The notes under the pieces are model-generated. The model was not told where the DNA came from. It was given only the letters and a program-made list of their open reading frames with translations, and did no database searches. A stretch of DNA of 44,998 nt from a virus. The stretch spans positions 1 through 44,998 of IMG/VR virus record IMGVR_UViG_3300015076_000003. One strand, given 5' to 3'. A program made the translations under genes and the position numbers. Below, in pieces: positions 6,969 through 41,369 of the stretch (position 1 is the stretch's first letter; every line of letters starts with the position of its first letter).

Positions 6969-7136
6969 TCAGCGGCCTGCCTTCGCCTTCGCCCGCTTCC
7001 TGCGGTTCTTGGCCTTCCACTTGGCGTCTGCCTTCAGGTAGGCTTCCTTGGGCACACTGAGGAGCTTGGTGACGGCATTGTCGAACCGTTCCCATTCGGT
7101 GTTGCCCGATATGTTGGGTGCCGGTAGTGGTTTCAT
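6969..7136 (-). CDS. Tiny basic protein coupled to the nuclease-methyltransferase, 55 aa
   Basis: ATG 7136 overlaps the stop of the 725-residue nuclease-methyltransferase (ATGA). The product has a conserved-looking core (WERFDNAVTKLLSVPKEAYL) and a C-terminal run of Lys, Arg and Ala. The FDxAVxKLLSVPK pattern occurs in many small phage and plasmid proteins, some beside toxin-type genes. Here, strict coupling suggests it modulates or accompanies the enzyme; that is inference. Confidence 0.65.
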   Translation of the reverse strand: MKPLPAPNISGNTEWERFDNAVTKLLSVPKEAYLKADAKWKAKNRRKRAKAKAGR

Positions 7137-9310
7137 CCTTGAATCCGTTCCTCCGTTGTGAACAGGTTTCCCGACGATGAACGCGAGGCGTGCTCGCGTG
7201 CCGATGCGGCTGCGGTCGGGTGTTGATGCTGGTTCTCAAATCGAAACCTGGAGGCTCTGGCGTACACCGGATCAAGCTCCATACTGATCCACTGCCTGCC
7301 GAGAGATTCCGCAGCGGCACCCGTCACATTCGAGCCTCCGAACGGATCGAGAATCAGATCCCCTGGCTGCGTAAGGAAATTGATAAAGAACTCGGGCAGC
7401 ACTTGGGGGAACCGCGCTGGGTGCGGCCTGATGCCTTCCTCTTTGCATCGGCGCAAGTAGTAGCTGTTGCTTTCGGTATTGGCGAACTCCAGAAGATTCG
7501 GAGGGATCGATCCACGGTTGTCTTTCCGAAACTTGGTGCTGATGTCATGCCCGGACGGGCGAAGTTGCGCCTTGTAGCCGTTCTTGAGCAAGTCTTTCAT
7601 GCTATCGCTGTACGGGCGCAGCACCTTGCGGTTATCACTCTTGACGAACGGATCTAGGGTCAGCCACCAGACGTTATTGACCGCATCTTTCACACGCAAC
7701 CGGCGCACGGTTACCCACTCGGCTGGCGTGGGAAGCCGAGCCGGATTGTAGTGGTAGAAGTCTTGCGCAAGATAAAATCCGCTCTCGCACATTTGCAACA
7801 GCAACTTGAAATGGTACGTGCTCTTGCACGGCAGTCCCTTGATCCATGCCCCTCCGATATCGATAACCACGCTCCCGTCTGGCGTCAGAATTTCCTTAAA
7901 CAGCGGTGTGAACTGCGCGAACCATTCCAGGTAATCGTCCGCATCCTCATTGCCGTAGTCCTTCTTTCGCACCAAGGCGAATGGCGGGGAAGTGACGATC
8001 AGTTTAACCCTTACGCCCTGGTCGATCAGGTGGGGCAGGATCGCCAGCGAATCACCAGTGAACATTTTTCCGAGCTTCGTCGCATAGGCCAACTCGAAAC
8101 TTTGCTGAATAGCTTTATCTGAAACTGGCCGCTCTTTGGCTGGCTCTGGCTCAGCAGCCTTGACGGGAGTCCCGCCGTCTGAAGGGGGCACGGTCTTGAT
8201 GTGTTGAAGGCTCGGCTTCATCCGCAGCGCGTTCTCGGCTTGCCGCCGCAACACATCGACAAGTTGTGTTTGGTCCTTGATGATTATCTGAAGGAGCGGC
8301 CCATCGATGATGATGATGTTCAAATTGCTTGTGCCGACGATCTTCGTCCGGTACGTCAGTGCGGCATCGGTCGCTTTCTTCGTGCCCACTACAAGGATTA
8401 CGTTCGCGAGCGTTACATCCTTCATGCCGACCTCTTTCGAGACGGCTTCAAGGCTGATCTTTCCGACCTTGCATTGAACCTGCCAGCGCGAGTAGGTCAA
8501 CCGTGCGGAGTGCAGGAGCGCATCGACTTCCCCACCGCCCGCGACTTCCTCGTCCGTTTCGCGCCAGCCCATGAAATCCAGCGCTAGTAGTTGACACAAC
8601 CGAATCGCCAGAAATTCGAGAGCTTTGCCGCTGACATTGGTATCGGTGCTCTCCATCTCTGCCACGATGTCCGCAAGCGCCTTGCTGCGAATCGCTCGGA
8701 TTTCTGCGTAACCAGCGGCCTTGTAGAGCGCACTCAACAGAGGCTCAGCGATTTCCTTCTCAAACTTCCCCGTTGGCTGTACGTCCGCCGCTTTGCCGCC
8801 CCTACCCTCCGGTGTGTCCTTGTCCTGTTTCGATTTCTTGCGAATATTTATCAGTCCCGCAGCCTGCAACGGCTGAAGTACCGCCTTGACGATTTCCTTC
8901 CAGTTGAAACGAACCTCGCCGGAGTAGAGAGCTTCAGCGTGACGGCAGATTGAATTGTAGGGCGTCCAATCGGTGATGTTCAAGGCCACCATTGCACGGA
9001 GGAAACTGATTTGCTCGCTGTTGAGATTCTTGAGCGCATGGAGCGTTTCAGTTGGAGCTCCCACCAATCGCGCATACTCCGCATCGTTGATATCGTACTT
9101 GTTGAGGATAACCTGCGCTTCGCGCAGCCAGCCCAGCAGCCCGGAAAGATCGCTCGAATTGCTGCTTGCTTCGATGCCACGGCTTGTAAGCTCTCCGGGC
9201 AAAGACTTGAGCTCGATCTTGATTCCAGCCGCAGCCATCTCCCGCAACGTCTCTACGATGTTCACGCCGTCCGGCCCTTCAATCATCTCTGCCTTGTGGC
9301 GGGGCTTCAT
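7133..9310 (-). CDS. Fused PD-(D/E)xK-like nuclease and N4/N6 DNA methyltransferase, 725 aa
   Basis: Residues 1-170 are an unassigned helical N-terminal part. Residues about 185-345 look like a restriction-endonuclease fold: GKALEFLAIRLC, then E-VDALL (Asp263) and a QCK strand (Gln279-Lys281) in the Mrr-like D...QxK arrangement. Residues 415-700 are a beta-class amino-methyltransferase: TSPPF (440-444, motif IV) precedes DPFGGSNVTG (655-664, motif I, SAM binding). One chain therefore could cut and modify DNA, as in type IIG-like enzymes. It follows a DUF3800 gene and is coupled to a tiny basic protein. It may protect phage DNA while attacking competitor DNA; recognition site unknown. Confidence 0.75.
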   Translation of the reverse strand: MKPRHKAEMIEGPDGVNIVETLREMAAAGIKIELKSLPGELTSRGIEASSNSSDLSGLLGWLREAQVILNKYDINDAEYARLVGAPTETLHALKNLNSEQISFLRAMVALNITDWTPYNSICRHAEALYSGEVRFNWKEIVKAVLQPLQAAGLINIRKKSKQDKDTPEGRGGKAADVQPTGKFEKEIAEPLLSALYKAAGYAEIRAIRSKALADIVAEMESTDTNVSGKALEFLAIRLCQLLALDFMGWRETDEEVAGGGEVDALLHSARLTYSRWQVQCKVGKISLEAVSKEVGMKDVTLANVILVVGTKKATDAALTYRTKIVGTSNLNIIIIDGPLLQIIIKDQTQLVDVLRRQAENALRMKPSLQHIKTVPPSDGGTPVKAAEPEPAKERPVSDKAIQQSFELAYATKLGKMFTGDSLAILPHLIDQGVRVKLIVTSPPFALVRKKDYGNEDADDYLEWFAQFTPLFKEILTPDGSVVIDIGGAWIKGLPCKSTYHFKLLLQMCESGFYLAQDFYHYNPARLPTPAEWVTVRRLRVKDAVNNVWWLTLDPFVKSDNRKVLRPYSDSMKDLLKNGYKAQLRPSGHDISTKFRKDNRGSIPPNLLEFANTESNSYYLRRCKEEGIRPHPARFPQVLPEFFINFLTQPGDLILDPFGGSNVTGAAAESLGRQWISMELDPVYARASRFRFENQHQHPTAAASAREHASRSSSGNLFTTEERIQG

Positions 9311-10801: not shown

Positions 10802-11314
10802 CTAGGAAGCGGTCCGCCCGTAGAACGTGATGTTCGCGGTCCCGGTGATTGAGCCGACCGTCAGCGTGTAGTTGGTTCCGGTCCCACCACCGGCCCCGAG
10901 CGTTACCTGTGCGGGCGCCCCACACGCGGGACTCAGGCAGAGCGTGACTGTAGCGCCAGCCGGAACATGGACGATGCCGCCCTGAGCGGTTCCCGCCCCT
11001 ACGTTGCTCGCGGTCCAGAAGGTCAAGGGCAGGATCAGGCTGAGCTGCGTCGGCAGAATCGGAGTAACCGTGCCGGCCGTAGAGGTCGCCGCAGATCCGT
11101 TGGCCGCCTGGGTGACTGAACACGCGACCGAGCAGTACACCACGATCTGATCGATAAGCACCTGGCTCGCGTTCGTGGCGGGCTGCTGGATCGTCGCCGC
11201 CGTCGCCGCAGCCGAAAGCGCAACGTCTCCCGTGGTGGCTCCCCAGCGCTGGAACTGCTGTCCGAAAACAGGACCCAGCAGCGCGAGTAACAATGTTGCA
11301 AGCCGAATCTTCAT
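10802..11314 (-). CDS. Exported beta-rich protein at the end of the virion operon, 170 aa
   Basis: The start (MKIRLATLLLALLGPVFGQQ) is a clear Sec signal peptide: two basic residues, a leucine-rich core and cleavage after VFG, leaving Gln first. The mature part is Thr/Ala/Gly-rich with alternating beta pattern and Cys pairs (CSVACS; CLSPAC) that could form disulfides in the periplasm. AAAGGGGAAACC precedes the ATG. It may be a secreted virion-associated or receptor-masking protein; no family is identified. Confidence 0.65.
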   Translation of the reverse strand: MKIRLATLLLALLGPVFGQQFQRWGATTGDVALSAAATAATIQQPATNASQVLIDQIVVYCSVACSVTQAANGSAATSTAGTVTPILPTQLSLILPLTFWTASNVGAGTAQGGIVHVPAGATVTLCLSPACGAPAQVTLGAGGGTGTNYTLTVGSITGTANITFYGRTAS

Positions 11315-12813
11315 GGTTTCCCCTTTGTCATCATATCGCCTACGGTGGTGGTTTTGCTCAACTCCGAATTGAGAGCGCGAGCGGCCGCCAGAGCCTTTGG
11401 GTTATTCCGGAGCGAAGGCGGAAGCGCCGCTTCCATCATTTCCGCCGCAGTGGTTGCAACGGAACCTTTAGGCAGCAGGGGCTCGCTGATCGACCGGCGC
11501 CCCATCAGGTGTTCGTACAGCTCAAGCATGGATTCCTGGCTCATCTGGGTCATCGACTTGACGCCGAAAGACTCTTTCGCAACGTCGCTCAGCGCGTCGT
11601 GATCCAAGCCCAGCTCAGAACCCATGCCGTGCAGCGCCCGGTTGAGCTTCGAGCGCCCGATGATAAAATAGCCGTCCGCCGTCAGATGCTCGCGCGCCAA
11701 ATCTTCCGTGATGCCGTTCTCCCGGGCGTACCGCGTCAAGCCCTCTTCGCTCATCAGCTTAGAAGCTCCAAGGTTGCTACCGGGGGCAGCGGGCAGGTCT
11801 ACCACCTTGGAGGTTGGGGCGGGGCCGCTGGGCTCGGATGTTCCACGTGGAACAGTTTCGGCAACCGGGGCAGGTTGGGCCACCGGAGGCGCTGGGGCTG
11901 GCTCGGGAGGGGCAACCGGCATAGGCGGGGCTTCCGCTGGTGCTGGAACCAGCGCGGGCGCTGGGGCCGCTACAGGCCCATCCAAGTGCTGGTTCAGGTG
12001 CTTTTCCAGAGCGTCGATGATCTCTGGTGAATAGCCTTGAACGGCAGCGGCCTGGGAGCTAACCTCGGGGGCGGCTACGGGCGTTTCCGCGGCAAGCGGC
12101 TCGCCTTTCTTCACGACGGCGCGCACCGCATCTAAGAGCGAGTTGGCGATCTCTTTTCCCACCAAAGCTCCGGCCGTAGCTCCCCCTGGTCCCATGACGT
12201 GCCCGAGATAGGCACCGCCGGCCGCTCCCGCCGCTCGCGTGAGAGCCGGAACGGCCTTGGAGCCTCCGGCCACTACCGCCCGCCCAACTACCGGAGCGAC
12301 CTTGACCGCGCCCTTGACGATGCCCGCTGTGGCTGCTGGAACCCCGTAGCCGCCTACCGCAGTGCCGACCGCACCGGGTATGTCGCCTTCGCCGCCCACG
12401 CTTCGCGGTAGACCTTGCTGAATCGACCGCGCCGCCGTCTCCGTTCCCAGGGGGAGAACGCTGAATCCTTGCGGCATCTGGAGGGAGCCTGCCAGTTCAT
12501 CCAATCGCGCTTGCTCTTGGCGAGTAAGGTCCCGTTTCTCTTTCTCGGCAGTGCCCATGATGTGCATGGCTTCGCCGGTTGCTTTCAAGTTATCGTGCGC
12601 CGATCCGAGCGGATGCTGCCAGATTCCCTTAAGAATTTCGATGGGGTTGTATTGGCTCGCCGCGTCTTTCAGGCTTTGCCAGAAACCGCGAGCTTGGCCC
12701 GGCTCCTCCATGTCATCGTGTACTGCGGAGCCGCCGAATTTCACATAAGGATCGGCGATGGCCGCGCCTCCAAATTTGGCGTACGGATCAACGGACTCAG
12801 CCGGAGTTCCCAT
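11311..12813 (-). CDS. Probable DNA-ejection protein, 500 aa
   Basis: This is the third gene of a block where P22-type phages encode ejection proteins. It has an N-terminal helical region with two YxKFGG repeats. A Gly/Ala-rich, membrane-active-looking middle (GYGVPAATAGIVKGAVKVAP; AAGAAGGAYLGHVMGPGGA) follows. A long Pro/Ala linker comes next, then a helical C terminus. Such proteins leave the head during infection and form a trans-envelope conduit. No lysozyme or transglycosylase motif is visible. The Pro-rich linker DNA contains the parS-like palindrome at 11839-11854. Confidence 0.5.
   Translation of the reverse strand: MGTPAESVDPYAKFGGAAIADPYVKFGGSAVHDDMEEPGQARGFWQSLKDAASQYNPIEILKGIWQHPLGSAHDNLKATGEAMHIMGTAEKEKRDLTRQEQARLDELAGSLQMPQGFSVLPLGTETAARSIQQGLPRSVGGEGDIPGAVGTAVGGYGVPAATAGIVKGAVKVAPVVGRAVVAGGSKAVPALTRAAGAAGGAYLGHVMGPGGATAGALVGKEIANSLLDAVRAVVKKGEPLAAETPVAAPEVSSQAAAVQGYSPEIIDALEKHLNQHLDGPVAAPAPALVPAPAEAPPMPVAPPEPAPAPPVAQPAPVAETVPRGTSEPSGPAPTSKVVDLPAAPGSNLGASKLMSEEGLTRYARENGITEDLAREHLTADGYFIIGRSKLNRALHGMGSELGLDHDALSDVAKESFGVKSMTQMSQESMLELYEHLMGRRSISEPLLPKGSVATTAAEMMEAALPPSLRNNPKALAAARALNSELSKTTTVGDMMTKGKP
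11839..11854. promoter_or_regulatory. Perfect 16-bp palindrome matching the parS consensus
   Basis: TGTTCCACGTGGAACA is fully self-complementary and matches chromosomal parS sites (consensus TGTTNCACGTGNAACA), the loading sites of the partition CTPase ParB. It encodes TVPRGT in a disordered linker, so the protein puts little constraint on it. No parA or parB gene is present in the window. Confidence 0.6.
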
Positions 12814-14582
12814 TACAACACCTTGCCGTCAGGATGCGTTTTCAGGAAAGAGTCTTTTTGATCGGCTGGGATTTGGCCTGGCGGATGTCCCGGAATCTGA
12901 ACGCGGATCATTCCGCCGCCACCGCCGCCCGAGATCGGCTTCATGGTTTGCGGGTCCATGCCGCGCCGCGTCAGAATTTCTTGCGCGCTGGGGCCGAATA
13001 CATGGACAACATTATCGAGTTTCGCATCCTTCACTTTTTCAATGAGCGAAGTTGAGCGGCCCGCCGCCAGTTGCAACAGCGCACCGCCCGCCGCCTTGAT
13101 CTGATCGGGGCTGTTGCTACTTCCCAGATTCTCCACGATGCGCTTGATTTCGCCTTCAGCCGGGACTCCACCGGTTGCTACTTTGCCGGTTTCGCCCGCG
13201 AAGAATTGCGCGACGAGATTCGCCTGAGTCGGCGGGGCCGCACCGAACGCCGTTGCGACTCGATTGTAAATCGCGTTGCCAGGACGGAAGGTTCCGTTCT
13301 TCAACGCCTCCGCACTTTCCATGTAGAGGTCCGCGTGGTGGATGAGCGTGTTGAGCGCGAGCACCTGCCCGCCCGCCTTGCCCATCGACGAGCTGGTGAA
13401 TTCCTTCAGGGTGTTGTAGCGCTTCTCGATGTTGGCTTCGTCGAAGTTCGGGTCCGCCGCTTTTACTTGGCCGATGAGTCCAGGCATCCGGCGCAACATG
13501 GCGCGCACCGTTGCCGGATCAAGATCCCCATTCGCAATCGCTTTCGCCGTTGTAGAGATGCCGCCCGCCATATCGAAGCCGGCCTTCTCACGTTCGAGAT
13601 TCAGCCGCGCGCCTTCGATCCCCAGGCGGCTCTTGCCCTGCCGCTCCATTTCATGCTGGTGCGCCGCCGTCATGGCGTGGAGCTGCGCCGTCATCTCGGT
13701 CGTTACTTGCTGCTCCGGCGTCATGCCGAGATGCCGCGCCGTCGCGGCGTCTTTCACGCCCTGGAAAATCGCCGCGCGTTCGGGCGGGAGCGAGGCCAGA
13801 ACCTTATCGACCGCGCCTGGTACTTTGGAATCGAGTGCGGTTGCAACCAGCGAAGCGTCGGCTTGCCGCTGTTCCGCCGCTACCTTTACATCAGCCTCGG
13901 CTTTCTGCGATCCCTTGAGCGCCGTACCCGCCGCCGTCTCCGCAATTGCACCCTGCTCCTTCTCGCGCTTAAGCGCCGCCTCGGTCATACCGGCCCATAG
14001 ACCGTGCTTCACCGCGAGCGAATTTAGATCGTCCATCGAATTGATGGTCGGGGGGACTGAACCGGCGGGGAGATCTTTCAGCAATCCCTCTTGGGTCATG
14101 TTTTGAATTGCGGATTGATAAAACTCAGGAAGTTTCGCTGGGTCTTTTTGGCCTGCGAGTTTGAGGGAATCCAAAGTTTTGCCGATCTGGTTCGCTACCG
14201 TCAGATCGTTCGCGAGCTTTCCTGTTCTGGCAGCTTGAAGGTTTTTTACAGATTCGGCCCCCGCCAGCGTGAGAGCGTTGATCGTCCCTTCGGACACTCT
14301 ACCCCGGAACATGGAGTAATCGCCGGTTTCTCCAACCTTCTTCGCGTCGGCTGGATTCTGGAAAAAATGTTGCTGGATGAGATTCTGATCATGAAGCTGC
14401 TGGTTTTTTTGCGCGGTGGCCGCTTCCTGTTCCGCCGCCTGCTGCTGAGCGTGTTGCGTCTGCGCTTGCCGCAACGCCACTTGGCTCATCGTGTCGCGCA
14501 TCTGCATGAGCTGGCCGATGCTTTGCAGAGGCGATTGGATCTGCGGAGCGCGAAGTTCGAGGTATGCCGGATCAATGGGCAT
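12813..14582 (-). CDS. Probable DNA-ejection protein (gp20-like position), 589 aa
   Basis: A long helical protein: the N terminus (MPIDPAYLELRAPQIQSPLQ) leads into Gln/Ala-rich coiled coil, a central helical array (KADASLV-type and QHEMERQGKSRLGIE segments), then a C-terminal region ending in a Gly-rich turn and QIPGHPPGQIPADQKD. Size, composition and position after the gp7-like gene fit P22-type ejection proteins that enter the cell with DNA. It overlaps both neighbours (TAATG at the downstream end). Confidence 0.5.
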   Translation of the reverse strand: MPIDPAYLELRAPQIQSPLQSIGQLMQMRDTMSQVALRQAQTQHAQQQAAEQEAATAQKNQQLHDQNLIQQHFFQNPADAKKVGETGDYSMFRGRVSEGTINALTLAGAESVKNLQAARTGKLANDLTVANQIGKTLDSLKLAGQKDPAKLPEFYQSAIQNMTQEGLLKDLPAGSVPPTINSMDDLNSLAVKHGLWAGMTEAALKREKEQGAIAETAAGTALKGSQKAEADVKVAAEQRQADASLVATALDSKVPGAVDKVLASLPPERAAIFQGVKDAATARHLGMTPEQQVTTEMTAQLHAMTAAHQHEMERQGKSRLGIEGARLNLEREKAGFDMAGGISTTAKAIANGDLDPATVRAMLRRMPGLIGQVKAADPNFDEANIEKRYNTLKEFTSSSMGKAGGQVLALNTLIHHADLYMESAEALKNGTFRPGNAIYNRVATAFGAAPPTQANLVAQFFAGETGKVATGGVPAEGEIKRIVENLGSSNSPDQIKAAGGALLQLAAGRSTSLIEKVKDAKLDNVVHVFGPSAQEILTRRGMDPQTMKPISGGGGGGMIRVQIPGHPPGQIPADQKDSFLKTHPDGKVL

Positions 14583-19535: not shown

Positions 19536-21899
19536 CTACGGCGTGGTGAGCGGGCCCGTGTGGTACTCCGTGCCGCCGATACACACGTAGAGTTGCTGGT
19601 TGCTGGTATTGAGCGCGAGCCAGCCATCCGCCACGCCCGCGCACGATGGAGCGCCGCCCGAAAAGAACCGCGTGTAGAAGTTTCCCGCCGATCCAATCGT
19701 GATAGCGCTGTTGGAGCTGGCGCCGGTGGTGATTCCTCCGCTGAAGGTGCTCCCGAGCAAGGCCGTGATCCCGCCGGTAGTCTGGATCGATCCCGCCCCG
19801 GCCCCGGTTGTGACCACGAGGCTGTTTTTGACTCGCAGGTTGCCGTTTCCGTCGACGGTGAAGTTTCCGTTGGAAAGATCGAATCCATTGAGTCCGCCGG
19901 AGACAGTTGATTTGAACTCGCTCCCTGTATGCACGTTGCCCTGGATATTGGCGAAGATCACGTTTGCTCCGGTATCGAGCGGTTGCGGAGTCGAAAAGGT
20001 AATCGTATTGCCGACCGGGTTCAGGATCACTTCGTTTGTCGTTCCTTGGAGCACGATGGCTCCCGTGAGGGCCCCGCTGCCCGCGTTGATGCTTGAAACT
20101 CCCGAGCCGCCTCCGGTCATGCACGCCCAGGAACCGCCGCTGTAGACGATCTCGCAATTCAGCGTGTCGCTGTAGGTGATCGTTCCGGCGATGGTAACCG
20201 TTCCCCCGGTGGTGGCTGTTGGACCTACGCCCGCCGCATAGGCTCCATGTCCAGTCTGGACGTAGCCGCCGGTGCCTCCATTGCCGGCCGTGAACGACAT
20301 CGCCGCCATACCGCCCGTGGGAGCCTGCACGATGTTCCAGGCAAGCGCTGTAGCCGGAGCCGTATGGTTGACGGCCAGCAGTCCTCCATCAGCTTGCAGC
20401 CAGCCCGGATAGACGATTACGCCCGGGGAGCCAGAGTTGACAGACACAACCGTCATGAGCTGGCTCGAAAAGGTGAAATTGGCCGATGCCGCGAAAGCCC
20501 CGCCGCCGCCACTGATTTGCACTTGCCCAGCGGCTCCGACCGAAGCCCCGCCTCCTCCTCCCAGCCCGACGAAGGCCGTGCCGTTGTAGACCAACTCTGC
20601 CGCGGTAGCGAGGTCCCAGTACATGTCGCCCCGCTTGAACCCCGCCATACCGGTAGTGAGCGGTGGCGGCCCAGCGGTCGGGCTTCCAACAGTCCCGCAG
20701 CAGATCCCGCTCTGGATAAAGTTGACGGCCGAGAAAGTAAGCGCCTGCATTCCTCCCGTGGGAACCTGGAACGTATTGTAGGGCAGGGGGGTGCTCGGGG
20801 TTGCATTGTTGACTCCCACAAAGCCCTGATCGCTCTGCACGTAGCTCGTGAGGTTCACAATCCCGGCCGTGCCCGTCTTGCCGATGTTGATGACCGCCTG
20901 GGTAGTCAGGTTGTACTCAAGATTTGCCACGCCGGTGAAGGTTCCGGCCGGGGAGGAGTTGAACTGTATCGCCATGGCCGGACCAGCGGCCGCGCCTCCG
21001 ATGGACGATAGATCGACCGATGACCAGGTAGTCGTGATGTCGTTGTAGTACCAGAAGACCGATCCGGCCTTGTGAGCGAACGCGCCATAGCCCGCCGATG
21101 GATTGTTCAGACTGGGCGAGGTCGCATGGTTCAGCAGATAGAGCGCCTGATCCGCCGTGTAGCCGAGCTTCACATACGCGCCGCCGTTGAGCGATTGGAT
21201 GCTGTTGTACTGGATGTTGCTCGTGGCAAGCCCGCCCATGGCGAACAGGTACGTATTGAGGTTCAAGCCTGAGATGGCTTGCTGTGGCAGGATCGTGGCG
21301 CACCCTGGCGGCGAGACTCCCGCCAGCGGGCTGGGACTGTTCCACAGGATCGCATCGGCGTTCTGAAAAGCCGCGCTTCCCGGTGTGGGCTTGGGCTGGT
21401 TGACCACATTGCCGTAGATATCCAGACAAGTAGTGTTCGGGTAGGTGATGAGCGGAAGGTCGATGTACCCCCCCGTTCCAGAAGATCCCGAGCCGGTCTG
21501 GATCACGTAGAGCGAGTTGAGGACGGCCTGCCCTCCGGTTCCGGGGAGGGGGATATTGTCTTGCGACCAAAGTATGGCTCCGGTGGTGCAGGCGTCCGAT
21601 GCCGGGTAAGCCGTGCCGCCCGAGCGAAGTACCAGCTTGTACAAAACCCCGTTTGCCGCACCCCACAGCGAGGCCCGCCCGGCTGAATCGAGCGTGACTG
21701 GGTTTGTGTTGGGAGTCCCGATTGAATCGACATAGGTGACCAGGGGCGTGCTCGTATTTGCGATGTAACTGCACAGCTTTCCGTTCGCCAACGGAGCGCC
21801 GGTATTGTCGAGGTACTGCACTTCAGGCGAAGGCATGGGCGCCGCCGTCTGAGCGACCGCCGCCACTGTGAACGCGAGAACGCTAAGGAGCCGCTTCAT
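19536..21899 (-). CDS. Tail fibre/spike-like protein with a signal peptide, 787 aa
   Basis: After a Sec signal (MKRLLSVLAFTVAAVAQTAA) comes the head-binding-like domain common to podovirus fibres: VQYLDNTGAPLANGKLCSY, then STPLVTYVDSIGT, NPVTLDSAGRASLW. The rest is a Gly/Thr/Ser-rich beta repeat chain with duplicated phrases, including VPTGGMQALTFSA and a later APTGGMAAMSFTA. This strongly suggests a receptor-binding appendage. A signal peptide in front of such a domain is unusual, because virion proteins normally assemble in the cytoplasm. The C terminus ends in a short CIGGTEYHTGP unit. Confidence 0.7.
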   Translation of the reverse strand: MKRLLSVLAFTVAAVAQTAAPMPSPEVQYLDNTGAPLANGKLCSYIANTSTPLVTYVDSIGTPNTNPVTLDSAGRASLWGAANGVLYKLVLRSGGTAYPASDACTTGAILWSQDNIPLPGTGGQAVLNSLYVIQTGSGSSGTGGYIDLPLITYPNTTCLDIYGNVVNQPKPTPGSAAFQNADAILWNSPSPLAGVSPPGCATILPQQAISGLNLNTYLFAMGGLATSNIQYNSIQSLNGGAYVKLGYTADQALYLLNHATSPSLNNPSAGYGAFAHKAGSVFWYYNDITTTWSSVDLSSIGGAAAGPAMAIQFNSSPAGTFTGVANLEYNLTTQAVINIGKTGTAGIVNLTSYVQSDQGFVGVNNATPSTPLPYNTFQVPTGGMQALTFSAVNFIQSGICCGTVGSPTAGPPPLTTGMAGFKRGDMYWDLATAAELVYNGTAFVGLGGGGGASVGAAGQVQISGGGGAFAASANFTFSSQLMTVVSVNSGSPGVIVYPGWLQADGGLLAVNHTAPATALAWNIVQAPTGGMAAMSFTAGNGGTGGYVQTGHGAYAAGVGPTATTGGTVTIAGTITYSDTLNCEIVYSGGSWACMTGGGSGVSSINAGSGALTGAIVLQGTTNEVILNPVGNTITFSTPQPLDTGANVIFANIQGNVHTGSEFKSTVSGGLNGFDLSNGNFTVDGNGNLRVKNSLVVTTGAGAGSIQTTGGITALLGSTFSGGITTGASSNSAITIGSAGNFYTRFFSGGAPSCAGVADGWLALNTSNQQLYVCIGGTEYHTGPLTTP

Positions 21900-29836: not shown

Positions 29837-31069
29837 CTAGCCGAAGATGATGACCGATTTGCGGTCGGCTTGCGTTTGGGCGATGCCCCAGACGAAATCC
29901 ATGCGGTTCGTTACTTCGCCGAGCCGGTTATCCCACTGCTGAATGCAGCGAATGGAGATTCCGGTATCGGGGTCTGTCATGACCGTACATTGAGCGCCCA
30001 GGCCGCTCACGTCCTGCAGCGGGATCGACACCCACGTGTAGGCGTCTTCCTGGAACGCGAACGCCGTCTGACAGAGGGTTCCTGAAGCTCCCACGATGGT
30101 GACGGCACCGCCGTTTGTGGGCGAAGCCGAGCAGTTCTGGTAAGGACCGCCGGGGATGATCGCGGGAAAGATTTGCAGCGTGGCCGCGCCGGCCGCGTCG
30201 GTTACGGGCGCAATGACGGCGAACTGCTTCAGGACGTTCGGCACCACGAGCCGCGATTGCAGGTTGATCTCGTAGCAACCGGCGAAAGTGACGTGATCGA
30301 CACCCGGCCCCTGGCTGAGGGACAAGCTAGCCGCGTTCCAGGTATTCGTGATGATGCTGTAACCCACCTGATTGGCCCCGTTCACTACTCCGGCGCCGGC
30401 GTAGGTCCCGACCGTCATGCTGGGAATTTGCTCGTCCAGATAGACATCGAATTCGGCGAAACGGCCCTGTTTGCCCGTCAGCCATTCCTTTCCGATGATC
30501 GACTGCGGATTGAAGAGCGTCTGCCCCTGCTTCACCATCGGCTGGTTGAAGTAGGAATTCAGCACCGCCGAGCGATCCGTGCCGAGCGCGAGAAGCTGAT
30601 TGAGCTTCGTCTGCGCGCTCGACAGCGCATCGAGCGCCGTCGTGGCGGTCAGCGCGGTTCCGGGCGTCCCGATCCAGTTCGGCGTGGTGGCCTGCATGTA
30701 CTGAAGCATGTAGCGGTCAACCTTATTGGCGAGGTTGATGGCCTGCGGCCGCACGTAGTTCTTTTTGATGTCGTCGTTGAGGAACATCGCCTCTTCGGTA
30801 TCGTTGTACACGAAGGACTGCTGGTTCCAGTAGTTGATCGACAGCGGCAGCGTGACGCGCACCATCCCCTCGGGCTGGAACGCCTGGCCGTCCGCGCCTA
30901 CAACGCGGATCGCTTCCTTGATGTCGAGCGAGGAACCGATCTTCGCGCCCTGCTGGAAATACTTTTCGTAGTTGCGCTTGAGCAACCGCGGCATAACGCA
31001 GTTGTTCGTGAACTCGCGCAGGAATTCGGCGGTGACTTCGCGCCGTACTGCCTCGTAGTTGCCTGCCAT
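29837..31069 (-). CDS. Major capsid protein, P22 coat-like
   Basis: The 410-residue protein begins MAGNYEAVRREVTAEFLREF and has the N-arm and spine patterns of P22-type coats: IGSSLDIKE, VRVTLPLSINYWNQQSFVYN, DIKKNYVRPQAINLANKVDR, FNPQSIIGKEWLTGKQGRFA and DVYLDEQIPSMTVGTYAGAG. It ends MDFVWGIAQTQADRKSVIIF. It should form the HK97-fold shell with the upstream scaffold. The GGAGG site before ATG 31069 is buried in the hairpin 31073-31114. Confidence 0.75.
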   Translation of the reverse strand: MAGNYEAVRREVTAEFLREFTNNCVMPRLLKRNYEKYFQQGAKIGSSLDIKEAIRVVGADGQAFQPEGMVRVTLPLSINYWNQQSFVYNDTEEAMFLNDDIKKNYVRPQAINLANKVDRYMLQYMQATTPNWIGTPGTALTATTALDALSSAQTKLNQLLALGTDRSAVLNSYFNQPMVKQGQTLFNPQSIIGKEWLTGKQGRFAEFDVYLDEQIPSMTVGTYAGAGVVNGANQVGYSIITNTWNAASLSLSQGPGVDHVTFAGCYEINLQSRLVVPNVLKQFAVIAPVTDAAGAATLQIFPAIIPGGPYQNCSASPTNGGAVTIVGASGTLCQTAFAFQEDAYTWVSIPLQDVSGLGAQCTVMTDPDTGISIRCIQQWDNRLGEVTNRMDFVWGIAQTQADRKSVIIFG

Positions 31070-31072
31070 GGC

Positions 31073-31114
31073 GGGCGAACCTCCAGTGGTGAATTTTCAC
31101 TGCGGTTTTCGCCC
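31073..31114 (-). promoter_or_regulatory. Hairpin that sequesters the coat-gene Shine-Dalgarno
   Basis: The RNA can pair GGGCGAA with TTCGCCC, CC with GG, and CAGTG with CACTG around a 9-base loop. The Shine-Dalgarno TGGAGG (31085-31080) lies in the 3' arm, ten bases before ATG 31069. It could delay or throttle coat translation. Confidence 0.5.
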
Positions 31115-31187
31115 AAGCCGTGAGGCTATATGCGAGGTCAGTGCGGTCTTTGAGGTTTCCCTCGGGCTTGCGCGGCCCTTACTGCTT

Positions 31188-31262
31188 TGGTGGGGGTGGA
31201 TGGATTCGAACCACCGACCTTCAGGTTATGAGCCTGAAGAGCTGCCTCTGCTCCACACCCCG
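31188..31262 (-). tRNA. tRNA-Met (CAT anticodon), initiator-like, CCA encoded
   Basis: The 75-base sequence folds as a complete cloverleaf: acceptor CGGGGTG with CACCCCC, D stem GAGC/GCTC, anticodon arm TCAGG-CTCATAA-CCTGA, variable AGGTC, T arm GGTGG-TTCGAAT-CCATC (one G-U), discriminator A and encoded CCA. Base 1 is C facing C72, so the first pair is broken, and the D stem has A11-U24; both are bacterial initiator features. The three G-C pairs of initiator anticodon stems are reduced to AGG/CCT. It starts five bases after the scaffold stop, inside the virion operon. Confidence 0.85.
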
Positions 31263-31266
31263 ATAC

Positions 31267-32313
31267 TTACCGTCTCACTCCCGAGCGCGTGTTCTGCTCG
31301 GCCTTCCATGCCGGGTTCAGCGTCTTGCCGTCCGGGAGCAGCATCTCTACTTTCCCGTCCGTCGCCGTCCCGCCTCTGACCGCTACGCTTTCCGATGGCT
31401 TCGGTTTCCTGGCGTCTAACTCAGCCGTGGAAGGTTTGGCCTCTTTGGCGTCCGGTTTCTGTTTGGGAGTATACAACACTTTTACTTCACCTTCAAGCTG
31501 CCGGAAGGTGTCAAGCTGGCTTTCGAAGTTCGGTGTCAGTTCCAAAAGCTCGCGCAAAACCTCGGGGTGCTTGGCGAAATGATACAGAACGCCCGCTTTT
31601 TGCTTGCTCCGGGCGATCATGATCGTAAGGCTGGGATGCTGATCGGGAACGAACTCAGCGTCCGCGTGCCCCGCCTTTTCCCATCGTTCCAGATCGGCCT
31701 CGTATAAGGCGTCCGTGGCGAAATTGGCAGGCTTGGGCTTCCCAGCAGCCGCAGCGACCGCCATCCAAGAATCGGGGCCTTCTGTTGGGAAATTAACCTT
31801 CAGGTCGGCCTCGCACTTTTTCTCCATCTCCTGGATCTCAGTCCGGACGGCTTCTACTTGCGCTGCCTGTGCGCCCTGCGTTCCGGCCTTCTCCAGCTCC
31901 TTTCGGGCTTCCTGGCGGGCGTCCCACCGGCCAGCCGCGCGATTGTATGCGGCATCGTCGGGAAAGTCCTTGCGCTGTGGTTCCGGATCCGCCTCGGCTT
32001 CGGTCTGCACTTTGGGCTGGCCAGTCGGCGATACCGTGATGCCCTTGGCTAGCAACTCCTCAAGCGCTGTGCGGCGTCCGCGCTCCTCTGCCGCTGCTTC
32101 GCGTAGCCGGTTCATCTCGCGGCGTGCGCTGCGAGAAATCCCGTGGTGCTCGTCCTGCTCGCCGTCTTTCGGTTTGGCCTCTTCGGTCTTGACCAGTACG
32201 GCGGGCGTCTTGCCGTCGCGCCGGTCCTGTTCGGCCTGATTCGCGCGCCGCAGTTCCTCGGTGAGGGTCAGCTTGCTTTCTTCGTTCGTCGCGGTCCCGT
32301 TGGTGGGCATCAT
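31267..32313 (-). CDS. Probable scaffolding protein, 348 aa
   Basis: The protein is highly charged and helical with disordered ends. It has a coiled coil (SRSARREMNRLREAAAEERG), a DDAAYNRAAGRWDARQEARK domain and a helical VLYHFAKHPEVLRELLELTP segment. P22-type scaffolds have the same low-complexity, acidic/Lys layout and always lie between portal and coat, as here. Two ATG codons (32313, 32310) open it. It should guide coat assembly and then leave the head. The tRNA follows directly. Confidence 0.65.
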   Translation of the reverse strand: MMPTNGTATNEESKLTLTEELRRANQAEQDRRDGKTPAVLVKTEEAKPKDGEQDEHHGISRSARREMNRLREAAAEERGRRTALEELLAKGITVSPTGQPKVQTEAEADPEPQRKDFPDDAAYNRAAGRWDARQEARKELEKAGTQGAQAAQVEAVRTEIQEMEKKCEADLKVNFPTEGPDSWMAVAAAAGKPKPANFATDALYEADLERWEKAGHADAEFVPDQHPSLTIMIARSKQKAGVLYHFAKHPEVLRELLELTPNFESQLDTFRQLEGEVKVLYTPKQKPDAKEAKPSTAELDARKPKPSESVAVRGGTATDGKVEMLLPDGKTLNPAWKAEQNTRSGVRR

Positions 32314-32319
32314 TGGGTT

Positions 32320-34596
32320 TTATTGTACTCCTGTTTCGGGCTGATTGTCTTGCTGGGCTTGTTGCTGCTCTGCCGCCGCTCCCTCTGCCTGTGTCTGAGA
32401 CGATGCCGCCGCGTCTTGCTGGCTCTGCTGCTGGTCTTTCTCGTGGGCGTGCTGGGTGGCCTGCATTCCGGCATCGTGAGCCAGTCCCGTCATGTGCTCC
32501 AACATGGATGCGTCGATTTCGGCGGTATCCACACCGGCTTTGATCTGAGCCGCGCGGATGTTCGATAAGGCATTCATGCCGGCGATCCACTTGCGAGCCT
32601 CGATCTCCGGCAGCTTCGAAGCGAGAGCTTGCTGAAGCTTCTGGATGATCTGCTGCTGGGCCTGCTGCATCTGCTGGCCCTTTTGCAACATGGCCTGCAT
32701 CTGCTCGGGCGAGGCGTCCTGTGTTTGATCGGGAGCGATGGCATCGGCGAGCGATTCCACTTGAGGATTCCCTTCTCCCACCATCCGGAGGAACTTCGCC
32801 GCCACGATGGGCGACTGGAGGATCTGGGGAACGACGTGGAATACCTCCGTCAGAGCTTCGATGGTCTTCTCGGTACGCTCGTGGAAGTTCGGCCCCGCCG
32901 TTACGTGCATCGCATAATCGCCGCGCGTGATGTAGTTGAGCGATTCGAGCTTGCCGCCCGCCGTCTTGCGCTTGCCCGACGCTATGTCGATTTCGCTGGC
33001 GGGAAATTCGCGGTTGATCTCCACGATTTCATGCTGGTTATCAGGCCGAACGATTGTCTTGACGCGCGGGCCGTCGAGCAGCTTGCGCAGAATCGTTCCG
33101 GCTTCCTGGTAGCTCAGCCCTACCGCACGGTGTAGCTGGTCCTGCCAGTTCAGTGTGCCGATGTTGGTCTGCTGCTGAAGCTCTTTGATGGCCGTGCCGC
33201 TCTGCACCTGAGCCGCGCTGCGCAGCGATGGCTCGAAAAACACGCTGGTAGCCGCTTTGATCTGCTCCCCGAAGAACGTCGCGAGCTCCATCAGCCGCGC
33301 AATCGGGGCTTCCCAGGTATTTCGTTGCGGAGCGGGCATCAAATGGCTTTGGCCTGTGATGGGATCTTGCGCAAATGTCGGCTTGACCTCCATGTAGGCC
33401 CACATCTGGGTGTTCGAAGATTCCCACGGATTGAACCCCTGCGCGTTCGTGGTGTCGAACTGGCCTTCCCAGCCGATCCACGGCGATTTCGTCATGCTGC
33501 CGGTGATTTCGGCCGCCGACGTAGCGGTGTAGTTCAGGCCGCGCTGGGCATCCTGGGCGTTGCTGATAAGCGAGAGCCGGTAGAGCTTGCCGTCCATCCT
33601 GATCTCCGGCCCCATGACATAAAAATGCGGGATCTGGGTTCCGAGCCAGTCTGTTTTCTTCAGAAGGTCCATCGCCGTTACGACATATTTCTTGACGGTG
33701 CGCTTCGGTTCCCATCGCTGGATTTCATGACCCAGATCGTCGACCTTGATCGTCACGCCCTCGGGCATGTTGTCTAGTTCCTTGCCGAGCCTGAAAATGC
33801 TATCGGTGCAGAGTGCCAGTTTGACGCGCTCAATCACCACGCGGTAGAACTCACAGACGTAGAACGGCCCTTTGTTCTCCGAACCGCCCGTCCACACGTT
33901 CTGAGTGGCCAGATCATTCTGGTATCCGAACGCATCCGCCATCCAGCCGCCGACCGCGCCCGCGCCGCGGTCGAATAGCGAACGGTTCAGCACCTTCAAC
34001 TCGGCCCCGTAGTCTTCGATGAGTTGTTCACGCGATAGCTTGCGGATCTTGCCGCCCCACATCGAATCCTCGCGGCACGGCATGACGGCATCGGGATCGT
34101 AGAACAACAGCGCCGGGTCCGTAACTGGCTTGACGACGAGTTGCTGCTCCATCGTGCGCTCGCCTGCATATTCGGTCGCGAGTTCGAACGCCCCACGTCC
34201 TCCCGCAGCGCCATACCTGAGCGCAATGATGTAAGCCGTCTTGGCGTCCGAACGATACTCGTACTCTCGGATCAGTCCTTCGAGGATATCGGCTCCGTCC
34301 TTATCGGCCCCGCCGCCTACCGGATGCGCTTGGGGGCCAGGCGGATTGCTGCGCGCTTCGTTTTCGACCTGATCGACCGCTGGTTTACAGCGGTTGATCG
34401 ACATCCACGGGCGATTGTTTCCCTGGCGGTTCTCGCATTCGCCTGGACGCCACTGGTGCTTGCCGCCTATCCAGAAACCGAGCGATTCCTTTTCGGCCAG
34501 GCGCTCTTCTTGCGTGGCGGTTTGATAGCGGTCCCAGCAGCGCCGCACGTATCGCGGAATGTCTTCGTCGGAGATTGTGTTACCGGCTACTGCCAT
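32320..34596 (-). CDS. Portal protein, P22-like
   Basis: The 758-residue protein opens with a helical PRYVRRCWDRYQTATQEERL, then GNNRPWMSINRCKPAVDQVE, the classic portal phrase before the N-rich loop. GGRGAFELATEYAGERT and VTDPALLFYDPDAVMP follow as in P22 gp1. The C-terminal 120 residues are a Gln/Ala-rich coiled coil, fitting the long barrel of P22-type portals. It forms the dodecameric DNA gate and docks TerL. It is coupled to the upstream gene (TAATG). Confidence 0.8.
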   Translation of the reverse strand: MAVAGNTISDEDIPRYVRRCWDRYQTATQEERLAEKESLGFWIGGKHQWRPGECENRQGNNRPWMSINRCKPAVDQVENEARSNPPGPQAHPVGGGADKDGADILEGLIREYEYRSDAKTAYIIALRYGAAGGRGAFELATEYAGERTMEQQLVVKPVTDPALLFYDPDAVMPCREDSMWGGKIRKLSREQLIEDYGAELKVLNRSLFDRGAGAVGGWMADAFGYQNDLATQNVWTGGSENKGPFYVCEFYRVVIERVKLALCTDSIFRLGKELDNMPEGVTIKVDDLGHEIQRWEPKRTVKKYVVTAMDLLKKTDWLGTQIPHFYVMGPEIRMDGKLYRLSLISNAQDAQRGLNYTATSAAEITGSMTKSPWIGWEGQFDTTNAQGFNPWESSNTQMWAYMEVKPTFAQDPITGQSHLMPAPQRNTWEAPIARLMELATFFGEQIKAATSVFFEPSLRSAAQVQSGTAIKELQQQTNIGTLNWQDQLHRAVGLSYQEAGTILRKLLDGPRVKTIVRPDNQHEIVEINREFPASEIDIASGKRKTAGGKLESLNYITRGDYAMHVTAGPNFHERTEKTIEALTEVFHVVPQILQSPIVAAKFLRMVGEGNPQVESLADAIAPDQTQDASPEQMQAMLQKGQQMQQAQQQIIQKLQQALASKLPEIEARKWIAGMNALSNIRAAQIKAGVDTAEIDASMLEHMTGLAHDAGMQATQHAHEKDQQQSQQDAAASSQTQAEGAAAEQQQAQQDNQPETGVQ

Positions 34597-36153: not shown

Positions 36154-37527
36154 TCACCCGAATGGGATGTAGGTCTGCGGCCGCAGGCGCGGTGGGGGCG
36201 TTGGCCGTTCTTCCTTCTCCGGCGGTGCCTTGATCGCCACCGCTGCCGCCTGGAACCCATCGGCGCCGTGCGAGGCCCAGTTGTGCAGTGGCTCTTTCTT
36301 TTTCTTCTTCTCTGGATCGGCTTGGCCGGTCCCATGGCATATCGGGCACGTTGTGCCCTGCAGCTTGCCGGTTCCCTGGCACTCCGAGCATGTATCGCCT
36401 TCCCATTGGTAGTGACGAAGCGCCTGTAGACCGTCCGCGCACTTCTCTTGATCGAACCTGCATCGGCTGAAGATTGTTCGGGCCGCATTGATGCGGTCGG
36501 TGATGAGCAGCTTCGGAACGATGCGCACCTTTCGGCCGGCCGCGCGCGCCAGTTGCTCAATCGACATCGTGCGATCACCTGTACCGCTCAGCTTGTGGTG
36601 GATGATGGCGTCAATGGCGTCGTGAGGCATCCAGTCGGTTCCGTACACATAGCCCTTGGTTTGGAGCGTCACAATCCAATCGGCAATCGTGAGGCCCCGG
36701 CCTTGTGCGTAGTCGATGAAGTTGTACCAGCCGTCATAGGGCTGCAGGAACCAGATGGTGTTGAGATCCCCGAACCCAAGATCCCAGGCAGTCTGTACCG
36801 GAAGAGCTTTGTTGTACGGCACCTGTCCGATTCTGCCATCGGCCAATGCCGCCGCCATTTCGTTCTTGAAGATCGCGCCCACTACGCTCGACTTGCATTC
36901 GCCGCCGTAAACGTGCGCGAATCCAATTGGATCAGTCGCGCGCATGTGCTCGATTCGGGCTATGCTGATGCGGGAGAGCCAGCGGTTATCCTCCCAGCCG
37001 ATCTTTTGCACCCATGTGTTCGGTGGTGGGTTCAGTACCCAGCGCACATGCGTGTTGTCGGTCGAAAGCTCCGGGTTGTAGGTGACGTAAATCTTCGCGC
37101 CTTCGGTTCGGATCGTCGGGAGAACGACGTCCCAGGAGTGTTTCGAGACGCTCTGCGCTTCCTCTACCCAGATCTTGGTGATGCGTTCGTACGATTTGAT
37201 TCCGTCGACGTTGTGCTTGAGGCCAGCGAAGAAAAACTCGGTACCGGCAGCCGCACCTATGCCGATGATGGTTTTCTTCTGGACGTTATACAGATGCCCC
37301 ATGTTCATCTGCTTGATCTGGTCTTCGAGGAGCTGGTGTACGGATTCCTGGATGGACTGCTGAGTCTCGCGGGCGCACAGAATACGCTCGGGGGCCTGCG
37401 TGCCCATCTCAAGCAACGCGCGCGCCACGCCCCATGACTTGGTTCCGTCCCGGCCACCGTAGATCACGTAGGCGTCGTACTGCGGATCGAACAGCGGGCG
37501 GAGCTTGCGCGGGAACTCGATGTCCAT
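36154..37527 (-). CDS. terL: Terminase large subunit with a zinc-module insertion
   Basis: The 457-residue packaging ATPase-nuclease has a Walker A-like loop GGRDGTKSW (24-32), Walker B IWVEEA (119-124) with catalytic Glu, TYNPEL coupling motif (149-154) and the RNase H-like nuclease with WDLG (Asp249) and SHGADGF (Asp423). It cuts and pumps DNA through the portal. Residues 380-401 hold CSECQGTG and CPICHGTG, a DnaJ-type zinc pair, placed in the loop just before the final nuclease Asp, where ordinary terminases have a short turn. A Lys-rich run (KKKKK) follows. It overlaps TerS by TGATG. Confidence 0.85.
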   Translation of the reverse strand: MDIEFPRKLRPLFDPQYDAYVIYGGRDGTKSWGVARALLEMGTQAPERILCARETQQSIQESVHQLLEDQIKQMNMGHLYNVQKKTIIGIGAAAGTEFFFAGLKHNVDGIKSYERITKIWVEEAQSVSKHSWDVVLPTIRTEGAKIYVTYNPELSTDNTHVRWVLNPPPNTWVQKIGWEDNRWLSRISIARIEHMRATDPIGFAHVYGGECKSSVVGAIFKNEMAAALADGRIGQVPYNKALPVQTAWDLGFGDLNTIWFLQPYDGWYNFIDYAQGRGLTIADWIVTLQTKGYVYGTDWMPHDAIDAIIHHKLSGTGDRTMSIEQLARAAGRKVRIVPKLLITDRINAARTIFSRCRFDQEKCADGLQALRHYQWEGDTCSECQGTGKLQGTTCPICHGTGQADPEKKKKKEPLHNWASHGADGFQAAAVAIKAPPEKEERPTPPPRLRPQTYIPFG

Positions 37528-40278: not shown

Positions 40279-40956
40279 CTAACCCGCGAAGTCCAGCACT
40301 TCCTGGCTGAGCCGCTTGGCCGCGATCTCGCAGTAGCGCTCCTCAATCTCGATGCCGATGGCTGGCAGGCTGCATTGTGCTGCAGCCAGCAGCGTGGATC
40401 CACTTCCGCAATATGGGTCCACAATCGGGCCGCGATCAACGCCGCTATACCGAATGATGAATCGCAGCAGACCCAGAGGTTTTTGGTGAGGATGCAGCTT
40501 CTCGGAAATAGACACGTTCTCTTCGCCACTGCGGATGATGCCGCGCCACAGATGCCGATAGATGCGCGCCGGGGCTTGGAAGTTAGTCCAGATCAACTCG
40601 CAGTCGGCCTGATTATCTGGCGTCGTCTCAACGCGTTTATCCCAGACAATCCAACACCTCGAGGGTGGCAATACGTGGGCGCAGTAGTTCCCTCCGAAGA
40701 TTGCAGCCAGGGGCGCGATTTGCTCAAGGTGTCCCGGATCCAGCGGCGCATCATCGCCAACAATGCCAGGGAAGTTTTCGCTACGCGCCCAGCGAACCCG
40801 GACTGGATCCCGCCAACCGCTGTTGTGGTTCGAGCGGTAGCTGATCCCATACGGCGGATCCGTGAGCAGCAGCGAGCCACCCCAAACATCCGGCAGAATC
40901 TCGCGGCAGTCTCCGTGGAAAATCTGAATCCCGACATGATCGTAGTACGGCTTCAA
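40279..40956 (-). CDS. Beta-class DNA (N4/N6) methyltransferase, 225 aa
   Basis: LTDPPYGISY (DPPY at 33-36, motif IV) comes before DPYCGSGSTLL (from 180, motif I, SAM binding), the order of beta-class amino-methyltransferases. The HPHQKPLGLLRFII segment (motif X) fits. It is small and lacks a large recognition domain, as in many phage orphan methylases that guard against host restriction. The start is TTG 40956, overlapping the stop of the upstream gene (TTGA); earlier codons are shadows of that gene. Confidence 0.75.
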   Translation of the reverse strand: MKPYYDHVGIQIFHGDCREILPDVWGGSLLLTDPPYGISYRSNHNSGWRDPVRVRWARSENFPGIVGDDAPLDPGHLEQIAPLAAIFGGNYCAHVLPPSRCWIVWDKRVETTPDNQADCELIWTNFQAPARIYRHLWRGIIRSGEENVSISEKLHPHQKPLGLLRFIIRYSGVDRGPIVDPYCGSGSTLLAAAQCSLPAIGIEIEERYCEIAAKRLSQEVLDFAG

Positions 40957-41369
40957 GGCCGCACCACCGGCTCCCCATCCCGATACACCACTCCCGCAAT
41001 ACCGGGGTCGCACGTAACCGCTTTCCAGCGCCCCTCCGCGAGCTGCTCTTTCCACCACATCGACGTACACTCCGGGTTCGCTTGGGCTTCGGTGTGCCGC
41101 GCGTGGGCCTTCTGGCAGGCCAGCCACCACGCCATAGCCATATCGCGCCCGCCCTTGTAGAAATCGCGCTCGCGGGCTGTAGAGATCAGCGTCTCGCGGT
41201 AAAACTTGACCTCCTGAGCATGCGCCTTCTCGGTCGCTTCTCTCTGGCGCTTCAGTTCCTCCGTAGCCGCGTTGATCTGCCAGCCGACGTCCAGCACCAG
41301 GAAGATCCCGATTGCCAGAATAGTGATTGTAGCGGAGAGCCACCAAGTAGAGGAGCGAGGGCGGGTCAT
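40953..41369 (-). CDS. Membrane-anchored coiled-coil protein, 138 aa
   Basis: MTRPRSSTWWLSATITILAI is a transmembrane anchor with short basic cytoplasmic end. A coiled coil follows (NAATEELKRQREATEKAHAQ) and then a domain with MAMAWWLACQKAHARH and a C-terminal RDGEPVVRP. The anchor plus periplasmic coiled coil resembles an inner spanin, yet it is among early genes. Coupled at both ends. Confidence 0.6.
   Translation of the reverse strand: MTRPRSSTWWLSATITILAIGIFLVLDVGWQINAATEELKRQREATEKAHAQEVKFYRETLISTARERDFYKGGRDMAMAWWLACQKAHARHTEAQANPECTSMWWKEQLAEGRWKAVTCDPGIAGVVYRDGEPVVRP

Follow-up and report, generated by a model that had tools for sequence, protein, structure and literature searches.

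Why would a virus keep a tRNA gene among the genes that build its head, and does that tRNA serve to start proteins? The question is raised by a metagenomic virus record of 44,998 bases (the window, by which we mean the whole stretch of DNA analysed), in which the only tRNA gene, a tRNA-Met(CAU), occupies positions 31262-31188 of the minus strand. Both ARAGORN and the Rfam tRNA model (RF00005; 60.1 bits against a gathering score of 29, E 1.2e-10) place it where the original prediction had put it, with the strand, which was lacking there, now assigned. A chance fold is ruled out by dinucleotide shuffling, since 200 shuffled versions of the window yielded six ARAGORN hits and not one tRNA-Met. 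The gene interrupts a P22-like head cluster that lies entirely on the minus strand, in the order terminase large subunit, portal, scaffold, tRNA and coat:

36154..37527, minus strand: terminase large subunit gene (PF04466, E 2.3e-35)
32320..34596, minus strand: P22-like portal protein gene (PF16510, E 8.7e-94)
31267..32313, minus strand: head scaffolding protein gene, stop codon at 31269-31267 (phrog_8865, E 3.2e-7)
31188..31262, minus strand: initiator-like tRNA-Met(CAU), 75 nt with encoded CCA (ARAGORN, Rfam RF00005)
29837..31069, minus strand: P22-like major coat protein gene (PF11651, E 5.4e-31; phrog_283, E 5.7e-51)

Gene order and protein families are those of P22-like podovirus head clusters, from which the window differs by the extra tRNA and by a leader, structured and conserved, that precedes its coat gene. 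The predicted neighbourhood holds to the base: the scaffold stop (31269-31267) is followed by GTAT, the tRNA begins at the fifth base, and the coat ATG at 31069 lies 3' of it, the whole gap from scaffold stop to coat ATG being 197 nt. No terminator-like site was found on the minus strand between scaffold and coat, and promoter-like and terminator-like sites in the tRNA region remain at chance level (both weak tests); the lack of such a terminator-like site makes co-transcription of the tRNA with the head genes likely. An attachment-site (attP) remnant was considered and rejected, given that no phage-integrase/resolvase family occurs in the record (possibly a fragment) and that the tRNA is complete and sits inside a virion gene cluster.

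Read from its 5' end by structural segment, the tRNA is CGGGGUG UG GAGC AGAGGCA GCUC U UCAGG CUCAUAA CCUGA AGGUC GGUGG UUCGAAU CCAUC CACCCCC A CCA. The unpaired C1:C72 end, the A11-U24 pair, the discriminator A and the CCA that had been claimed for it are all present. Its cloverleaf is complete, with C1xC72 as the sole non-standard stem pair; the remaining stem pairs are intact, and the gene therefore carries no sign of decay. The D stem contains A11:U24 and encloses a D loop of 7 nt, the anticodon loop is CUCAUAA with a CAU anticodon, and the discriminator is A73. Within the anticodon stem (UCAGG/CCUGA), positions 29-31:39-41 form AGG/CCU (A29:U41, G30:C40, G31:C39). The acceptor stem includes G2:C71, G3:C70 and U6:A67, and position 26 is a U.

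These features bear on which of the three CAU-reading classes the tRNA belongs to. Initiators lack a Watson-Crick pair at 1:72, join a purine at 11 to a pyrimidine at 24 (nearly always A:U), have either three G-C pairs at 29-31:39-41 or the known AGG/CCU variant, and hold CAU in a CUCAUAA loop together with A73; the phage tRNA presents C1xC72, A11:U24, AGG/CCU, and that same loop and discriminator. Elongator tRNA-Met combines C11:G24 with a paired 1:72, and lysidine-modified tRNA-Ile2 combines a Y11:R24 D stem with a paired 1:72, neither of which agrees with A11:U24 and C1xC72. Published counts from 9917 reannotated CAU tRNA genes (PMC5143459) show how sharply these positions discriminate: C C at 1:72 occurs in 90 initiators, no elongator Met and two tRNA-Ile2 genes; A:U at 11:24 occurs in 4430 of 4438 initiators and in none of the 5479 genes for elongator Met or Ile2; and the AGG/CCU stem, the second commonest of bacterial initiators, occurs in 522 of 4438 initiators, one Met and one Ile2 gene. 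An initiator-like identity is thus well supported by three independent sequence diagnostics (C1xC72, A11:U24 and the AGG/CCU stem). The original prediction rightly counted two of the three G-C pairs in the anticodon stem, but its hint of a lost pair leads astray; AGG/CCU stems are normal among initiators, and a degenerate anticodon stem was rejected on the basis of the 522 published initiators and the many genomic loci that carry it. When one genome of each species was scanned, it appeared in at least 119 stretches, mostly of Alphaproteobacteria and also of Verrucomicrobiota and others.

Whole-molecule comparisons, made against 174 initiator-type tRNAs from viruses and 50 from genomes, are less uniform. 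Over its full length the phage tRNA is at most 84-85% identical to initiator-type tRNAs and at most 73% identical to elongator CAU tRNAs. A column-wise log-odds score favours the initiator class by +45 bits over all columns, a figure inflated by the choice of search patterns; with the pattern-fixed columns removed, and the most informative columns thereby discarded, it falls to +2.2 bits, under the initiators' 5th percentile (5.9), owing to an acceptor stem with the unusual pairs G3:C70 and U6:A67. The PMC5143459 tables are the fairer class test than either log-odds figure. That atypical acceptor stem would suit an elongator tRNA-Met or a tRNA-Ile2 that had lost its 1:72 pair by chance, for which a single G1 to C change in a GGGGGUG/CACCCCC stem would suffice, yet not one of the 5479 published genes for elongator Met or Ile2 has A11:U24 and only two have AGG/CCU, and no elongator exceeds the 73% identity given above. 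Elongator Met or Ile2 identity was accordingly rejected on A11:U24, C1xC72 and AGG/CCU, and we regard it as extremely improbable.

The closest bacterial counterpart is the AGG/CCU variant of tRNA-fMet, which is common in Alphaproteobacteria and also found in Verrucomicrobiota and some Bacteroidales. The phage tRNA shares with it A11:U24, an unpaired 1:72, G30:C40, G31:C39, CUCAUAA, A73 and CCA, and matches on Azospirillum replicons reach 80.5% full-length identity. Whereas the bacterial molecules usually have C1xA72, C3:G70 and G26, the phage tRNA has C1xC72, G3:C70, U26 and a 7-nt D loop. G3:C70 (versus C3:G70) and U26 (versus G26) are atypical for an initiator. Among at least 162 distinct viral initiator-type tRNAs, a count that leaves out any with an identical genomic copy, pair 3:70 is C:G in 136, U:G in 25 and G:C in one; this last is a misparse, which leaves no cleanly parsed initiator with G3:C70. 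U26 occurs in none of the 162 listed, and a scan of viral contigs with a U26-specific pattern gave no other match. Formylation in E. coli is helped by G2:C71, C3:G70 and A11:U24 (PMC7949028); of the two acceptor pairs, the phage tRNA has G2:C71 but G:C in place of C:G at 3:70. From its sequence, formylation by the host enzyme appears likely, with an uncertainty that stems from G3:C70 and U26.

Is this tRNA an oddity of one virus? Two search patterns, with the D stem and anticodon arm fixed and 1:72 left free, each returned at least 120 matches in viral contigs (L006-L125 and L411-L530), a set that includes some proviruses with host edges. Viral CAU tRNAs with R11:Y24 (at least 174 distinct) show 137 mismatches, 35 A:U or G:U pairs and two G:C pairs at 1:72; those with Y11:R24 (107 distinct, as listed) show 80 G:C pairs, 19 weak pairs and eight mismatches. 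Among the matches listed, then, 1:72 is unpaired in 137 of 174 against 8 of 107 (Fisher p 3e-34, uncorrected for kinship). The mismatched bases vary (CA, UU, CU, AC, AA, CC, UC), with seven further viral cases of C C among the matches listed, and this variety argues for selection on non-pairing and against host genes having merely been copied. With at least 162 distinct sequences, initiator-type tRNAs prove widespread across viral contigs. Of these, 45 sit no more than 500 bases from the end of their locus; the rest comprise 72 that stand as the only tRNA gene and 45 with a further tRNA inside 3 kb. Phage initiator-type tRNAs are thus commoner than the statement that most phage tRNAs are elongators suggests. 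Terminase or portal genes lie near four of a dozen hand-picked loci (L034, L044, L046 and L073), an anecdotal observation. Genes for tRNA-fMet have been reported before in single phages, such as Erwinia phage pEa_SNUABM_47 (PMC7760394), and the tRNA described here is a further case of a known, under-studied class. It resembles the other members in its initiator D stem, its unpaired 1:72 and its occurrence, as often, as a single gene that, as sometimes, lies near packaging genes; unlike them it lies inside a P22-like head cluster, flanked by scaffold and coat, and where those that could be parsed have C3:G70 or U3:G70 and a purine at 26, it has G3:C70 and U26.

Comparison with relatives indicates how the tRNA came to lie there. 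Protein and profile searches with the coat protein supplied the loci for comparison. None of those searched contains a tRNA, relatives with coats 41-71% identical included. In the closest, L001/L004, with 71% coat identity, the scaffold stop TAA is followed directly by GCAGTAAGGGCC; in the window the corresponding TAA and GCAGTAAGGGCC are separated by GTAT, the tRNA and AA. The segment so delimited is:

31186..31266, minus strand: inferred insertion, about 81 nt long (GTAT + tRNA + AA), from the empty site in L001/L004

Its ends are ambiguous by a few bases owing to AAG being repeated at both. Read most simply, the window's lineage gained about 81 nt in one insertion just past the scaffold stop; this is preferred over loss, which would need several events in the relatives, and the arrival of the segment in the capsid gene cluster is apparently recent.

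We assign a probability of about 0.5 to the reading that an initiator-type (tRNA-fMet-like) tRNA entered this lineage by a clean insertion, which now separates the scaffold stop from the coat leader, and is used in initiation. RNase P excision, charging by MetRS and formylation belong to general tRNA biology, and the tRNA would plausibly pass through each of them. Transcribed as part of the late head operon, it would be freed from the late mRNA by host RNase P and 3' trimming, its CCA being already encoded; host MetRS would charge it through CAU and A73; the unpaired 1:72 and the A:U at 11:24 would allow at least partial formylation; and IF2 would take the formylated tRNA into the start of translation, so that the host tRNA-fMet pool would be supplemented or replaced in late infection. 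The possible benefit would be supply under heavy late translation, or a substitute for host tRNA-fMet under attack (VapC, AtaT).

The insertion might instead have brought no benefit, as a captured host- or phage-type tRNA gene tolerated past a stop codon. Its absence from every coat relative searched, the clean junctions with their short AAG repeat and the frequency of single genes among listed phage initiator-type tRNAs (72/162) would fit such a passenger; against it, the tRNA has diverged by about 15% from the nearest known initiator with cloverleaf and diagnostic features still intact, and many phages carry initiator-type tRNAs in which different bases preserve the mismatch at 1:72. We consider this account unlikely. 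Unlikely, too, is a special case of the initiation reading, in which the tRNA is a spare that replaces, or acts as a decoy for, host tRNA-fMet hit by defence or toxin enzymes. Host tRNA-fMet is a known target of VapC, which cuts the anticodon region, and of AtaT, which acetylates Met-tRNA-fMet; the phage tRNA departs from typical initiators in the D loop, at position 26 and in the acceptor stem, but its CUCAUAA loop and AGG/CCU stem are those of ordinary initiators, so that the VapC site bears no evasion change. Phage tRNAs have been proposed to evade anticodon nucleases, but in the same work S. flexneri phages generally avoid encoding tRNA-fMet (PMC10264068).

The position of the tRNA acquires a further aspect from the RNA that follows it. 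Inspection of the region ahead of the coat gene revealed a second element:

31103..31180, minus strand: conserved structured RNA element (coat leader) with P1, P2, AAAGACCGCA-n-ACC, and P3 enclosing P4 (model R1, covariation)

P1 has the loop CGCGCAA, P2 is followed by AAAGACCGCA and then ACC, P3 pairs YCGC with GCGR around P4, and many P2 and P4 hairpins carry GNRA loops. Model R1 scores the window's leader at 70.4 bits (E 7e-15), the window being part of its training set, and also matches relatives from outside that set (for example L270, L267, L265, L271 and L003), where the copies lie some 180-310 bases upstream of the coat gene's start. Over 11 pairs of P1, P3 and P4 in 21 sequences, standard pairs make up 89.6% of the total, as compared with 77.2% after column shuffling and 27-51% after sliding, both-side changes number 30 cells where shuffles give 8.5, and the covariation score reaches 0.375 as compared with 0.139, for a structure hand-chosen on the same 21-sequence alignment, which is partly misaligned. 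Because minimum-free-energy folding of the leader alone is unimpressive, the case for it rests on covariation and conservation. It is present in nearly the whole clade (the window, L001, L002, L245-L253, L255-L261, L264-L272 and L531-L553), intergenic in close relatives and inside the scaffold ORF in distant ones, where it is read in different frames (L540 ...KDRTHPAE, L532 ...GKTASTPQ); it is therefore the nucleotides of the leader that are conserved, and not the protein. R1 found no match in the more distant P22-like L274-L278 (28% coat identity), nor in six genomes with coat homologues, a run made without a positive control; blastn of a consensus-like query against characterised phages likewise gave no match. 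In searches of the window and of the L248 leader with Rfam covariance models no leader match rose above the gathering score, and the tRNA was the window's only match. The leader may be the more novel feature of the two, and we would guess that it controls the translation of coat or the processing of mRNA.

With the tRNA exactly between the scaffold stop and this leader, the tRNA fold could act mainly as a cut site that parts scaffold from coat mRNA and gives the coat message a new 5' end at the leader. Scaffold and coat are required in different amounts in P22-like heads, and the scaffold-coat gap lacks a minus-strand terminator-like site, both of which would suit such punctuation. Any tRNA could serve for cutting, however, while this one keeps initiator-specific features, and the relatives do without a tRNA; we rate the proposal improbable. 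Scarcely better are the prospects of a joint action, in which processing would both free a working initiator tRNA and yield a coat mRNA starting at the leader, a hitherto undescribed structured RNA that would govern coat synthesis or mRNA processing across the phage clade. If that were true, one insertion would have supplied an extra starter tRNA and a new control of the scaffold-to-coat ratio.

Assignment of a host from the tRNA stem or from coat homologues failed, as AGG/CCU occurs in several phyla and the homologues are scattered: distant ones turned up in 14 of 385, 6 of 369 and 1 of 289 sampled genomes around Azospirillum, Marinicella and Akkermansiaceae centres, respectively. Known phage records hold no coat relative above about 31% identity, and a plasmid search with the coat protein gave no match. 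Elsewhere in the window lie two DNA methyltransferase genes (N6_N4_Mtase, PF01555) at 7133-9310 and 40279-41346, both on the minus strand; the first has a marginal match to an Mrr-type restriction endonuclease (PF04471, 21.9 bits, cut-off 21), and its predicted product may be a fused restriction-modification protein. Three ORFs of 787, 589 and 500 aa (19536-21899, 12813-14582 and 11311-12813, minus strand, as the virion genes) have no PHROG match.

What most merits following is the recurrence of phage initiator-type tRNAs, together with the leader RNA. That many viral initiator-type tRNAs exist, mostly with 1:72 left unpaired by different bases, argues for a selected function. If phages do supply initiator tRNAs, they would influence the step that starts every protein and a tRNA that toxins target, and a general question becomes testable: whether phage initiator tRNAs take part in initiation and rescue infection when host tRNA-fMet is attacked.
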